Origin: Paenibacillus sp. 1781tsa1
Lineage (GTDB): Bacteria > Bacillota > Bacilli > Paenibacillales > Paenibacillaceae
Assembly (NCBI RefSeq): GCF_024159265.1
Contig: NZ_JAMYWY010000001.1
Span: forward strand, 1,798,001 to 1,862,000
Length of the DNA stretch: 64,000 bases
Direction: 5' to 3'
The notes beneath the pieces were generated by a model. The model saw only the letters and a list, made by a program, of their open reading frames with translations. It ran no database searches and was not told the DNA's origin. The position numbers and the translations under genes are program-made. The stretch's first letter is position 1, and each line of letters begins with the position of its first letter. Positions 5,512-10,788 of this stretch are shown here, piece by piece.

Positions 5512-6483
5512 TTAATGGTGATGATGCGCGTGGGCATCAGGTGCGTCGCCTTTGACAGTGCATAGTACCGAGGTGTCATGCAGATGTTTCTCAGACTCCA
5601 CTTGGAGCGTTACATGTTTGATTTCTTTATGCTCCAGCATATGTTCAATCTTCTGAACCAGGGTCTCGGATGCATACACATCCATCGTTCCATCTACGAC
5701 GATATGAGCAGTCAGTGCGTTCAGGTTACTCGTAATGGACCAGACATGCACATCGTGTACGCCTTTGACACCATCCACTTGTTTGATGGTCTGCACCAGC
5801 TCATTCACATCCACATTGGCCGGAGTACCTTCCATCAAGATATGCAGAGATGATTTGGTGACATAGAACCCACTACGCAATACCAGTGCCGCGACAATGA
5901 CACTCGCCAGTGGATCGGCCCAACCCCAGCCAAAGAACATCATCAGCAATGCCGCAGCAATGGCTCCAACCGATCCCAGCATGTCACTGATGACATGCAG
6001 ATAAGCACCGCGCATGTTCAGGTTATTCTCCGTATCGCTACCACGCATCATGATCCAGGCTACCAGAATATTGACGAGCAATCCGATGACGCTGATGATT
6101 AACATGCCTACGGTTGCGACTTCTGGCGGGTTAATGAATCGACCAATGGCTTCGTAGAAAATGTAGAGCGCAATGGCGATTAACGTAATTCCGTTTAACG
6201 TGGCAGCCAGAATTTCAAATCTTCTGTATCCGTATGTTTTGCCGGTATTCACGGCTTTTTCACCAAACGTGAACGCCAGCAAAGCGATCCCGAGTGCAAT
6301 GGAGTCGGACAACATATGGCCTGCATCCGAAATAAGTGCGAGACTGTTGGTAATAAATCCACCAATGGCTTCAACGATCATATAGACGGTAATAATAATG
6401 AAGGAAAACAATAATACTTTTTTGTTATTGGTGGTGTGAGCGTGATCGTGCCCATGGTTATGACTGTGTTGATGTCCAGACAT
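5512..6483 (-). CDS. czcD: Cation diffusion facilitator (Zn/Cd/Co exporter, CzcD type)
   Basis: 323 residues. A His-rich N-terminus (HQHSHNHGHDHAH) and C-terminus (HAHHHH) flank six transmembrane segments. The transport-site motifs SDAGHMLSD (helix 2) and HVISDMLGS (helix 5) supply the HxxxD/DxxxD zinc ligands. A cytoplasmic dimerisation domain follows. It exchanges cytosolic zinc, cadmium or cobalt for H+ or K+. AAAGGAGAG precedes the ATG. A perfect promoter with a palindromic operator lies 120-160 nt upstream, implying metal-responsive repression. No regulator gene is adjacent. Confidence 0.9.
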   Translation of the reverse strand: MSGHQHSHNHGHDHAHTTNNKKVLLFSFIIITVYMIVEAIGGFITNSLALISDAGHMLSDSIALGIALLAFTFGEKAVNTGKTYGYRRFEILAATLNGITLIAIALYIFYEAIGRFINPPEVATVGMLIISVIGLLVNILVAWIMMRGSDTENNLNMRGAYLHVISDMLGSVGAIAAALLMMFFGWGWADPLASVIVAALVLRSGFYVTKSSLHILMEGTPANVDVNELVQTIKQVDGVKGVHDVHVWSITSNLNALTAHIVVDGTMDVYASETLVQKIEHMLEHKEIKHVTLQVESEKHLHDTSVLCTVKGDAPDAHAHHHH

Positions 6484-6583
6484 ATTAAATCCTCTCCTTT
6501 GGAGCGAAGCTCCGTTATGTAATATGATTTCTAGTGTGGCTATAAATGAATCTTTAGCAAAGGTTACTCACTAACAAATGAAT

Positions 6584-6603
6584 ATATGAGCGTTCGTTCA
6601 TAT
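6584..6603 (-). promoter_or_regulatory. Palindromic operator for the CDF gene
   Basis: ATATGAGCGTTCGTTCATAT is a near-perfect inverted repeat (8 of 10 paired positions) placed directly downstream of the -10 box of the czcD-like promoter. Its form fits both ArsR/SmtB (CzrA-like) metal repressor sites and TetR-family sites; the sequence alone does not decide between them. Confidence 0.6.
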
Positions 6604-6614
6604 GTTATGGTTTT

Positions 6615-6643
6615 ATTATAGTTGCGCCTCATAGTAGTGTCAA
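6615..6643 (-). promoter_or_regulatory. Consensus sigma-A promoter for czcD-like gene
   Basis: On the minus strand TTGACA (6643-6638) and TATAAT (6620-6615) are separated by exactly 17 bp. Such a perfect promoter normally needs a repressor, which fits the palindrome just downstream. Confidence 0.85.
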
Positions 6644-6774
6644 CCAGATTTAAGGAAATGTAAACATACCAAGGTATCTCCATGCACGTGCTGGCGAATG
6701 AGATTGCTTTTGTGCTACCATCTGTGCAGGATCATAGTGAGATGTTCTCGCTACATAGAAGGGCGGATAACGAT

Positions 6775-7452
6775 ATGAAACATCTGCTGCTGGCAGACGA
6801 TGATGCGAATATTCGAGCACTCCTGCGGCATGTCATGACCAAGGAAGGCTATCGGGTTCATGAAGCGCAGGACGGACTGGAAGCAGTCAAACTGATGCAA
6901 GAAACACCGATCGATCTGGCAATCTTAGATGTGATGATGCCAGGCATGGACGGATTGGAGTTATGTGATTACATTCGGCAGCATTATGATATTCCAATTA
7001 TGTTGCTGACGGCACGAGATCAGCTATCTGACAAGCGAGACGGTTATCTGAAAGGAACGGATGAATATGTGACCAAGCCGTTTGAACCGGAAGAATTAGT
7101 CTATCGGGTAAAGGCGTTATTTCGTCGGTACCATCGCACATCCAGCGATATCATCCGCATGAATCGAATCGTCATTGACCGTAATAATGTGGAGGTTACG
7201 GACGGGCAATCCATTCTATTTTTACCAATGAAGGAATTTGAATTACTCTCACAGCTTGCCCAGTTTCCGGGACGTTTGTTCTCTCGGGATGAACTCATTC
7301 GACTTGTCTGGGGAGCAGATTACGAAGGAGATGACCGCACTGTTGATGTACACATCAAGCGGTTGCGCGATCGATTTGCCGATTATACGGAGGATTTCGT
7401 CATCCAAACGGTCCGGGGCATTGGTTACAAGATGGAGGTGAAAGCACCTTGA
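6775..7452 (+). CDS. hssR: Haem-response regulator HssR
   Basis: 225 residues from the ATG at 6775; an upstream in-frame ATG at 6682 would add 31 residues before the receiver domain and looks wrong. Receiver domain with acidic pair DDD (8-10), phospho-acceptor Asp52 in LDVMMPGMDG, then TARD and KPF. The C-terminus is an OmpR/PhoB winged helix with DYEGDDRTVDVHIKRLR, closely resembling staphylococcal HssR. It should bind the direct repeat before hrtB and activate haem efflux. The kinase gene overlaps by 4 nt. Confidence 0.8.
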   Translation: MKHLLLADDDANIRALLRHVMTKEGYRVHEAQDGLEAVKLMQETPIDLAILDVMMPGMDGLELCDYIRQHYDIPIMLLTARDQLSDKRDGYLKGTDEYVTKPFEPEELVYRVKALFRRYHRTSSDIIRMNRIVIDRNNVEVTDGQSILFLPMKEFELLSQLAQFPGRLFSRDELIRLVWGADYEGDDRTVDVHIKRLRDRFADYTEDFVIQTVRGIGYKMEVKAP

Positions 7453-8825
7453 GAACGTTGTACGTCCGGGTATTCCTCATTACGGTGGCGGTGATTGTGG
7501 TCAGCGGCATGCTCGGTTTCCTTTTGTCGAATATCTACTATCATGCCAAGCTCAAGGATTTCAATGATGAGAAGCTGGTGGGCATTGCAACGCAAATGAA
7601 GCAATTTGTGGAGCAGCAACCTGGGACGATGGAGCAGTATCTGAACAATGCCGCCGCACTCGGATACGAAATCTATGTGACAGATGGAAAGGAAAATGAC
7701 CGATTCTACGGCCGCGAATTCCGAGAGAAAGATCTGGACAAACAAGCTGTAGAACTGGTGCTGCGGGGTGAAGTGTACCACGGTGTCGCGCAGTTTCCAA
7801 GCAAACCGTTCATTACCGGGTTTTTCGATAATCAATTAAGTAACACCGTGGGTGTTCATCTAAAGTTGGGCAATACCAATTACGCTCTCTTTATGCGCCC
7901 GGATGTAATTCTGCAGTTCGGTGAGCTGCGTATCTTTTTTGCACTGATTGGCGCATTTACCATAGGCATTAGTATTCTGATCTTTCTGATCAGTACCCGA
8001 TATCTGGTCAATCCGATTGAACGTCTGTCCGAGGCGACCAAGCGGATTGCACAAGGAAAGTATAATCTGAAACTGCCTACCGCACGGCGTGACGAGATTG
8101 GACAATTGGCCCAGCATTTCATGACCATGAGTCGTGAATTGGAGAGGGTCGATCAGGCGAGGCAGCAGTTTGTATCCAATGTATCCCATGAGATTCAATC
8201 GCCGTTGACATCCATTCAGGGGTTTGCCCAATTAGTGGCAGATCGGGATCTGCCTGAACAGGAACGGGAGCACTATGCGTCGATCATTGAGGAGGAGAGC
8301 CGTCACCTCTCCTTGTTGAGCAAGCAGCTGCTTCTTCTGTCCTCTCTTGAACAAGGCAACGAAGATCTGACCAAAGTAAAGTTCTCTTTGCGAGACCAGT
8401 TCCGGCAAGCGGTTCAGGTGCTGCAATGGCAACTGGAAGAAAAAGAACTGCTACTTCGGATTTCGGTGCCCGAATCCATCCAGCTGATTGGCAATGAAGT
8501 GCTGCTCATGCAAGTCTGGATGAATCTTCTCGGTAATGCGGTGAATCACCTTCCACAAGGAAGAAGCATCGAGATTCATGCCGAGCAGATGGATAACCAG
8601 TGTGTGATTCAGATTCGGGATACAGGGGACGGGATTGCTGCGGAGCATCTGCCTTTCCTGTTTGATCGATTCTATAGGGTGGACCGTGCGCGGGAACGTT
8701 CTTCCGGCCGAACCGGGCTTGGACTTGCCATTGTGCAGAAAATTATCCGAATCCATGACGGTACAATTGAGGTTGCCAGTTCGACTGAGGGTACGGTCTT
8801 TACCGTGACCCTTCCGCAGATGTAA
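7449..8825 (+). CDS. hssS: Haem-sensing histidine kinase HssS
   Basis: 458 residues from a TTG that overlaps the hssR stop; GGAGGTG is correctly spaced. Order: TM1 (about 7-27), extracellular sensor (28-160), TM2 (163-182), HAMP, HisKA with His247 in NVSHEIQSPL, HATPase with GRTGLGLAIV. The sensor shares landmark segments with S. aureus HssS: SNIYYH, RFYGREFRE, ITGFFDNQLSNTVGV and LFMRPD. It should phosphorylate HssR in response to haem-related membrane stress. The assignment rests on remembered family motifs, not on an alignment. Confidence 0.8.
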   Translation: MRTLYVRVFLITVAVIVVSGMLGFLLSNIYYHAKLKDFNDEKLVGIATQMKQFVEQQPGTMEQYLNNAAALGYEIYVTDGKENDRFYGREFREKDLDKQAVELVLRGEVYHGVAQFPSKPFITGFFDNQLSNTVGVHLKLGNTNYALFMRPDVILQFGELRIFFALIGAFTIGISILIFLISTRYLVNPIERLSEATKRIAQGKYNLKLPTARRDEIGQLAQHFMTMSRELERVDQARQQFVSNVSHEIQSPLTSIQGFAQLVADRDLPEQEREHYASIIEEESRHLSLLSKQLLLLSSLEQGNEDLTKVKFSLRDQFRQAVQVLQWQLEEKELLLRISVPESIQLIGNEVLLMQVWMNLLGNAVNHLPQGRSIEIHAEQMDNQCVIQIRDTGDGIAAEHLPFLFDRFYRVDRARERSSGRTGLGLAIVQKIIRIHDGTIEVASSTEGTVFTVTLPQM

Positions 8826-8831
8826 TCTGTT

Positions 8832-8864
8832 ATTCATTTTCCGTTCATTTTCGCCTCTTATACT
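8832..8864 (+). promoter_or_regulatory. HssR direct repeat and hrtBA promoter
   Basis: ATTCATTTT-CC-GTTCATTTT (8832-8851) is a tandem 9-mer with a 2-nt gap (11-bp period). It matches the geometry and most of the sequence of the HssR site known from S. aureus (GTTCATATT-N2-GTTCATATT). A TATACT -10 box follows at 8859-8864. There is no good -35, as expected when the activator replaces that contact. Confidence 0.75.
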
Positions 8865-8892
8865 TGGGTTATCAAGAGGGAGGTCACACAAC

Positions 8893-10023
8893 ATGTACTT
8901 GGCTATTCGGGAAATGAGGTATGCCAAAGGGCGGTATGCCTTAATTGCTACAATCATGGTACTGGTTTCATTTCTGGTACTGTTTGTTACAGGTCTTGCA
9001 CAGGGGCTGGCGTATGATAACGCAGCTTCGGTCAAAAATATGGCAGCAACCCACTTTGTGATGGAACAGGATTCGAATCATCGGTTTACCCGGTCACAAG
9101 TGGATCAGGATCAGCTTAATCAAGCTCGCTCCGTAGTGGGGCAAGAGAACGCTGAGCCACTCGGTGTGAAAATGACAACCGTCAGTCCAATGGGCGACAC
9201 GAAAAAGATCGATGTCACGTTGTTCATGGTGAATCCGGAAGGCTGGCTTGCTCCAGCGGTTACCGAAGGAACTCCGATTACGGATCAGACCAACGGGCAG
9301 GTTGTGGTGGATCATAAGTTAGCTGAATCCGGTGTGACGATTGGCACCGTTCTGGTCGATCAAGCTTCCGGGATGAAGTGGACCGTTGGCGGATTTGTAC
9401 AAAATGAGTCTTTCAGTCACTCTCCGGTCGTGTTCCTGAATGAAGAAGAATGGCTTACGCTTCAAGGAGGGACACGGACTACACAAGGTTCGGCCGACAC
9501 CAATGCTAATGCTCCGATATACAATGCCATTGCGGTAAAGGACGCGGGTGAGCAGGTAGACGAACTAAGTGCTGCAATGCCTAATACGGAAGTCATCACG
9601 AAGTCGGATGCCGTATCGGCCATTCCTGGATATAAGGAAGAGCAGGGATCGTTGCTTATGATGATCGCTTTTCTATATGTCATCTCAGCGTTTGTACTTG
9701 CTGTATTTTTCTATGTCATCACGATTCAGAAAACAAGTCAGTTCGGCATATTGAAAGCGATCGGAACGCGGAATGGATATCTGGCGGGTAGTGTTTCGTT
9801 ACAAGTGTTCATTCTATCGGTTGGCAGTTTGGTCATTAGCGTACTGTTGGTTCGACTGTTTGAGTCCATCTTGCCAGCATCAATGCCATTTCAATTAGGC
9901 TTATCCACGCTTGCCTTAACCTGCGTATTGTTCATCCTGATGTCTATGGCGGGTTCATTATTTTCAGTGTGGAAGGTTACCAAAATTGATGCGCTTGATG
10001 CGATTGGGAGGACAGCAGCATGA
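8893..10023 (+). CDS. hrtB: Haem exporter permease HrtB (FtsX family)
   Basis: 376 residues. TM1 near residues 16-38, a large extracytoplasmic domain, then three C-terminal transmembrane helices in the FtsX/MacB layout. The N-terminus (MYLAIREMRYAKGRYALI, then FVTGLAQGLAYDN) is typical of HrtB/DevC-like permeases. With HrtA it should export haem or haem-damaged molecules from the membrane. GGGAGG lies before the ATG, and the last codons overlap hrtA in ATGA. The order hssRS-hrtBA on one strand differs from the divergent hssRS/hrtAB of staphylococci. Confidence 0.8.
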   Translation: MYLAIREMRYAKGRYALIATIMVLVSFLVLFVTGLAQGLAYDNAASVKNMAATHFVMEQDSNHRFTRSQVDQDQLNQARSVVGQENAEPLGVKMTTVSPMGDTKKIDVTLFMVNPEGWLAPAVTEGTPITDQTNGQVVVDHKLAESGVTIGTVLVDQASGMKWTVGGFVQNESFSHSPVVFLNEEEWLTLQGGTRTTQGSADTNANAPIYNAIAVKDAGEQVDELSAAMPNTEVITKSDAVSAIPGYKEEQGSLLMMIAFLYVISAFVLAVFFYVITIQKTSQFGILKAIGTRNGYLAGSVSLQVFILSVGSLVISVLLVRLFESILPASMPFQLGLSTLALTCVLFILMSMAGSLFSVWKVTKIDALDAIGRTAA

Positions 10024-10697
10024 GAAACCGATTGGTATTACAGGGAATTACCCAGACCTTTGAAGATGGTAGCAGTAAACGCACGATTCTGAATAAGCTC
10101 GACCTTGAGGTGGCCGAAGGGGAACTTGTAGCTGTGATGGGGCCTTCCGGCTCTGGCAAAAGTACATTCCTGTCCATTGCTGGCGCACTTCTTGAACCAA
10201 CGGAAGGACAGGTTCTGCTGGACGGGTCTTCTATTATGGGCAAAAGTAAACAAGACATATCTGATGTACGGCTTCAACAGCTTGGTTTTATATTTCAAAG
10301 TGCCAACCTCATTCCTTATCTGAAAGTAGAAGAACAACTGATGGTGGTCGCGAAGCTCGCCGGAACGGATAAAAACAAGGCGGAGAAACGAGTAGATGAG
10401 CTATTGGATACCGTAGGGCTGACCCATCGGCGGAAGGCATATACGGAGAAGCTGTCTGGTGGGGAGCGTCAGCGGGTCGCTATTGCACGGGCCTTGATGA
10501 ACGATCCGGCTGTCCTGCTCGCGGATGAACCGACAGCCAGTCTGGATGCAGAGCGCGGGCTGGATATCGTAGGCATGATTGCGCGGCTCGTGAAAGAGCA
10601 GGGCAAGAGTGCAGTGATGGTTACGCATGATGAGCGGATTTTGCCGCTCTGTAGCCGGGTTCTTTTTTTGGAAAAGGGAAAACTGGTGCAGCATTAG
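10020..10697 (+). CDS. hrtA: Haem exporter ATPase HrtA
   Basis: 225 residues, ABC ATPase of the LolD/MacB type: Walker A GPSGSGKS, Q-loop FIFQSANL, signature LSGGERQRVAIARAL, Walker B VLLADEPTASLD, H-loop VTHDE. Start overlaps the hrtB stop by 4 nt, implying translational coupling. It energises the HrtB permease. A terminator follows within 100 nt, closing the cassette. Confidence 0.82.
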   Translation: MRNRLVLQGITQTFEDGSSKRTILNKLDLEVAEGELVAVMGPSGSGKSTFLSIAGALLEPTEGQVLLDGSSIMGKSKQDISDVRLQQLGFIFQSANLIPYLKVEEQLMVVAKLAGTDKNKAEKRVDELLDTVGLTHRRKAYTEKLSGGERQRVAIARALMNDPAVLLADEPTASLDAERGLDIVGMIARLVKEQGKSAVMVTHDERILPLCSRVLFLEKGKLVQH

Positions 10698-10749: not shown

Positions 10750-10788
10750 GAAGGTCATGTATTCCCGGTGGGAAGGTGGCCTTCTTTC
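10750..10788 (+). terminator. Terminator of the hss-hrt cassette
   Basis: GAAGGTCA (10750-10757) pairs with TGGCCTTC (10777-10784), one G-U pair, followed by TTTCTT. Confidence 0.6.

Follow-up and report, generated by a model that had tools for sequence, protein, structure and literature searches.

A stretch of 64,000 nt of the Paenibacillus sp. 1781tsa1 genome (hereafter the window) carries at positions 6775-10697, on the plus strand, four consecutive open reading frames (ORFs) encoding a response regulator, a histidine kinase, an FtsX-type permease and an ABC ATPase, which very probably make up a complete, intact and standard haem-detoxification module of the HssRS-HrtBA type. This assignment is carried by gene identity, gene order, pocket residues, a ligand glutamate, an operator-like repeat and the predicted fold of HrtB, all observed at the locus itself. 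A previous reading of the window made from its sequence only had proposed four successive genes of one strand for HssR, HssS, HrtB and HrtA, a proposal that the ORFs, their Pfam domains and the comparisons given below bear out. The features of the locus are the following:

6775..7452, plus strand: hssR, OmpR-type response regulator of 225 amino acids (aa); Pfam Response_reg and Trans_reg_C, start and order kept in relatives.
7449..8825, plus strand: hssS, membrane HisKA sensor kinase of 458 aa with a TTG start; Pfam HAMP, HisKA and HATPase_c.
8832..8851, plus strand: HssR-box-type direct repeat ATTCATTTT-CC-GTTCATTTT with an 11-bp period, within the hssS-hrtB gap.
8859..8864, plus strand: candidate -10 element TATACT of an hrtBA promoter, read from the sequence.
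8893..10023, plus strand: hrtB, FtsX-type haem-export permease of 376 aa; Pfam FtsX, PDB match and predicted fold.
10020..10697, plus strand: hrtA, ABC ATPase of 225 aa; Pfam ABC_tran.
10770..10786, plus strand: possible, weak intrinsic terminator 3' of hrtA; terminator scan.

The start of hssS overlaps the stop of hssR and the start of hrtA (10020) overlaps the stop of hrtB (10023), with a spacer of 67 nt between hssS and hrtB. An alternative upstream ATG exists for hssR at 6682; position 6775 is favoured by relatives and by a ribosome-binding site. The terminator scan returned 6 sites of the above kind in the scanned stretch for 3.3 (standard deviation 2.2) expected by chance.

Identity of the sensor was addressed by the reciprocal search suggested in the sequence-only reading, which came out in its favour: HssS of Staphylococcus schweitzeri, the kinase adjoining hrtBA at locus L141, retrieved the window kinase first in the host genome (7.08 Mb) with 301 bits vs 156 for the runner-up, the match being full-length with 37% identity. 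S. schweitzeri belongs to the S. aureus complex. The response regulator of the same staphylococcal locus is 43% identical to the hssR product, and a profile of Paenibacillaceae HssS had as its top listed match in each of six genomes (set f9) a kinase that adjoins hrtBA. The sensor phrases quoted earlier, SNIYYH, ITGFFDNQLSNTVGV and LFMRPD, are indeed present in the window kinase, their counterparts in S. schweitzeri HssS being TNVYYH, VTGFFDNETDNTVGV and VFMRPD.

In S. aureus HssS, sensing and binding of haem require residues F25, R94, F128 and R163, while F165 lies near haem in the modelled pocket (PMC11237747). S. schweitzeri HssS carries all five residues at the published S. aureus numbers, and in an alignment with 112 further kinases, one of which (L135) is a gap across the pocket region, these fall on F24, R92, F126, R161 and F163 of the window kinase, which keeps all five residues of the modelled pocket. 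The arginine at the R163 position is retained by 85 of 88 readable hrtB-linked kinases vs 11 of 23 unlinked ones, a tally over related sequences that amounts to an association only. HssS copies with no nearby HrtB-like gene (L040, L049, L050 and others) often lack this arginine and look as though they had departed from haem sensing.

Gene order was compared across loci chosen non-randomly, namely 50 Paenibacillaceae loci (the 30 best family matches, own locus included, and 20 hand-picked further down the list), 20 from other families of the class, hand-picked from profile-search matches, and 80 named loci from a scan with staphylococcal-type kinases. In 47 of the 50 Paenibacillaceae loci the order is linear, hssR-hssS-hrtB-hrtA on one strand, and in the other three no HrtB-like gene lies within the stretch; linear order is therefore the norm in this family. 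Adjacency persists down to ca. 48% protein identity, with the repeat present in the gap in all 47 cases, and the same four-gene layout is found in Paenibacillus turicensis (L181) and in a Paenibacillus metagenome-assembled genome (L184). The other-family loci comprise 7 linear, 1 hrtBA-hssRS, 6 divergent and 6 without HrtB, and the named loci 52 divergent, 14 linear and 14 without HrtB; linear order also occurs in Bacillus, Gottfriedia, Marinococcus and Oceanobacillus. A single operon of all four genes is described for Streptococcus agalactiae and, by the authors' count, for Granulicatella and Exiguobacterium (PMC5238366). The sequence-only reading had stated that the two halves are divergent in staphylococci, which is correct, and that hrtA there precedes hrtB, which is wrong because the permease gene is transcribed before the ATPase gene in all 127 loci with hrtB, staphylococci included. 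In each of the 58 divergent loci (52 named ones of Staphylococcus/Macrococcus type and 6 from other families) hrtB is promoter-proximal. The earlier statement on staphylococcal gene order is hereby corrected, and the linear, hrtB-first arrangement, previously regarded as unusual, is widespread among the loci compared.

The proposed HrtB-like permease and HrtA-like ATPase are likewise upheld, the former by its PDB match, fold and E250 and the latter by its ABC_tran domain. In a PDB sequence search the sole match of the permease above threshold was the haem exporter of Corynebacterium diphtheriae (7w78_B; E 7.6e-33), the organism of entry 7W7D being named as C. diphtheriae in PMC11442138. A structure prediction that drew on 17 relatives (mean pLDDT 81.7) points to the same fold, its best Foldseek match being the C. 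diphtheriae haem exporter (E 4.8e-22; TM 0.75/0.82), with MacB as the next family (E 1.3e-15) and LolCDE and BceAB also among the lower-ranked folds. S. schweitzeri HrtB placed the window permease first in the host genome, with 152 bits vs 111 for the next and 32% identity. Residue E250 (position counted by hand) lines up with the axial haem ligand of C. diphtheriae HrtB, E219 (PMC11442138), and a glutamate fills this column in each of the 127 aligned rows, which comprise 125 relatives besides the window and its paralogue. The gene hrtA adjoins and overlaps hrtB, and an ATPase gene accompanies hrtB in 127/127 loci, some being partial where the stretch ends.

A second HrtBA-like pump is encoded at C1:218737-219852 (L059:4312-6890) behind a TetR-type regulator; its permease is 36% identical and keeps the ligand glutamate. 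Its layout is like that of lactococcal hrtRBA. HrtR-like control of this pump was nevertheless not retained, as its TetR regulator gave weak general TetR matches in the PDB (best E 9.5e-06), among which Lactococcus lactis HrtR (entry codes 3vok/3vp5) was absent.

Within the hssS-hrtB gap, positions 8832-8851 read ATTCATTTTCCGTTCATTTT, that is two copies with 11-bp spacing, followed at 8859-8864 by TATACT. The TA-rich ACT motif of this candidate -10 element is kept in close relatives; the element was not picked up by the consensus promoter scan, which demands a -35. The pattern TTCA-7-TTCA occurs at most 150 nt upstream of hrtB in all 127 loci (47/47 Paenibacillaceae, 14/14 others of the class and 66/66 named), vs 0/127 for each of two controls, the reversed pattern upstream and the pattern within the gene itself, over its first 150 nt. 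A stricter form, TTCATNTTNNNTTCATNTT, has 3 occurrences in the host genome and its reversed control none. For Listeria and Bacillus anthracis, haem-induced activation is reported to need the direct repeat (PMC6305404, PMC3968170); no related paper on the letters of one HssR-box half was found among the literature matches listed. The repeat is not accepted here as proof of HssR because paralogous systems carry repeats of like kind, HitRS of B. anthracis also using an HssR-type direct repeat (PMC3968170). A further match to the repeat, possibly due to chance, lies at C1:1930788 (L061:4001), upstream of a sugar-ABC-permease-like gene.

By analogy with the characterized members of the family, the locus would be expected to perform haem binding, phosphotransfer, induction and export. 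Membrane-bound HssS would sense haem at the membrane or its outer face through the pocket of conserved phenylalanines and two arginines, and, once activated, would phosphorylate HssR. Phospho-HssR would in turn bind the direct repeat at 8832-8851 and activate a promoter dedicated to hrtBA, these two genes being read from an internal, HssR-dependent promoter and hssRS from one of their own upstream. Export by HrtB and HrtA would then clear haem from the membrane and thereby shut the signal off. The aligned pocket, the ligand glutamate and the operator provide clear targets for testing this scheme in a soil bacterium.

The sequence-only reading had further held that the organism must meet toxic haem or a mimic of it, and that this is unexpected for a soil genus. 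Neither blood nor a mimic needs to be assumed. A ferrochelatase is encoded in the host genome (PF00762, 277 bits); the organism therefore makes its own haem, and endogenous haem is therefore a sufficient reason for a pump, HssRS being known to respond to endogenous haem as well (PMC12153329). Nor does surprise at a soil genus follow, as 34 of the 44 genomes compared from this genus encode HssS-like kinases at E <= 1e-140 (own count from the match table). The locus is a further example of a known module, with a gene order and a control site that are common in relatives, and is hence unsurprising. A limited literature search turned up no paper that treats HrtBA and HssRS, or hrtA and heme, together with Paenibacillus, which is no proof of absence. 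These data favour regarding HssRS-HrtBA haem detoxification as a trait general to the Bacillota, including their soil genera, rather than as a hallmark of pathogens living in blood.

The host genome contains a second HssRS-like pair, at C1:3140241-3142282 (L060:3324-5365). In the kinase tree, eight kinases of this second-system type form one side of a branch with a support of 100/100; all 28 hrtB-linked kinases, that of the window included, are split from the paralogous systems at a 100/100 branch, together with 12 hrtB-unlinked ones. Repeats associated with the second system (GTTCATACTCCGTTCATATT, GTTCATACTCAGTTCATATT and GTTCATATTCCGTTCATATT; sites L060:5480, L060:6581 and L057:6001) have an 11-bp period and lie upstream of three alpha/beta hydrolases (L060:5571, L060:6692 and L057:6102), and a variant site (L062:4001) lies upstream of a beta-lactamase-fold gene (L062:4105). 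HssRS and the second system would thus read almost one operator, and, as a tentative and rather doubtful suggestion, haem stress may be cross-wired with a second, membrane-related signal having a hydrolytic output.

Several observations weigh against the assignment to HssRS-HrtBA. Some relatives, a few of them with a linked hrtB, have other residues at the positions of R92 and R161, and repeats nearly identical to that of the window also occur at the paralogous two-component system and at some of its relatives. Among the 25 best NCBIfam models shown per protein, not one attained its cut-off for the four gene products and none bore the name Hss or Hrt; a family name from this source was dropped for that reason. 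A search for NEAT domains, related to haem uptake, was empty, and so was its control, so that nothing follows from it.

Among the other explanations, the locus could be a true HssRS-HrtBA homologue with another porphyrin or a hydrophobic mimic as its main ligand, for instance coproporphyrin or the porphyrin of a competitor. HssS is activated by membrane-embedded haem through a modelled pocket that has no usual axial ligand (PMC11237747), and a compound raising both coproporphyrin III and haem figures among the published activators (PMC12153329), which would leave room for such a ligand; the glutamate of the haem exporter is, however, invariant throughout the aligned rows, and the ferrochelatase makes haem available both as signal and as cargo, rendering this explanation improbable. 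Slightly less credible still is an envelope-stress two-component system, HitRS-like or other, coupled to a transporter of another substrate and having only the HssR-type operator in common with the haem module. That operator type is common to such paralogues, HitRS and HssRS cross-regulate in B. anthracis (PMC3968170), and HrtB falls in the wide FtsX/MacB/BceB fold class. Against this, the pocket is missing from the paralogous kinase of the host, which has F, K, a gap, V and F at the columns of F24, R92, F126, R161 and F163, whereas the window kinase possesses it, and the window permease best matches HrtB structures and keeps the haem-ligand glutamate. Finally, a mere chance neighbourhood of the four genes with no single functional unit, for which the 67-nt gap and the option of separate hssRS and hrtBA transcripts could be invoked, is refuted by conservation: 47 of the 50 Paenibacillaceae loci keep both the adjacency and the repeat, an order that places the four-gene set far beyond chance.

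Outside the module, a divergent cation-efflux (CDF) gene occupies 5512-6483, and its upstream region (6580-6643) contains a sigma-A-type promoter matching 12 of 12 positions on the minus strand, at 6643-6615. It is accompanied by an imperfect palindrome, ATATGAGCGTTCGTTCATAT, that is perhaps a TetR-type operator.

When compared to known systems, the HssRS-HrtBA locus of the window shares with that of Staphylococcus, as tested with S. schweitzeri, all four proteins, the pocket residues, transcription of hrtB before hrtA and, upstream of hrtB, a GTTCAT direct repeat of 11-bp period, but the staphylococcal halves are divergent whereas the four genes here all lie on one strand, and the kinase and permease are 37% and 32% identical. 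The hrtBAhssRS operon of S. agalactiae (PMC5238366), which is haem-induced, is also made of four collinear genes but has hrtBA first and an HssS whose extracellular part counts 19 residues, unlike the module here, which opens with hssRS and has a full-length sensor domain. C. diphtheriae HrtBA (PDB 7w78-7w7d) resembles the window pump in permease sequence, fold and haem-ligand glutamate, but is placed under ChrSA and not HssRS (PMC11442138). Lastly, B. anthracis, with its HssRS and HitRS (PMC3968170), parallels the host genome, where a paralogous two-component system likewise exists beside HssRS and has near-identical direct repeats, and its cross-wiring may serve as a model for the two systems of the host; the second system of the host adjoins alpha/beta hydrolases and a beta-lactamase-fold protein instead of the HitPQ transporter, and its output would be a different, hydrolytic one.

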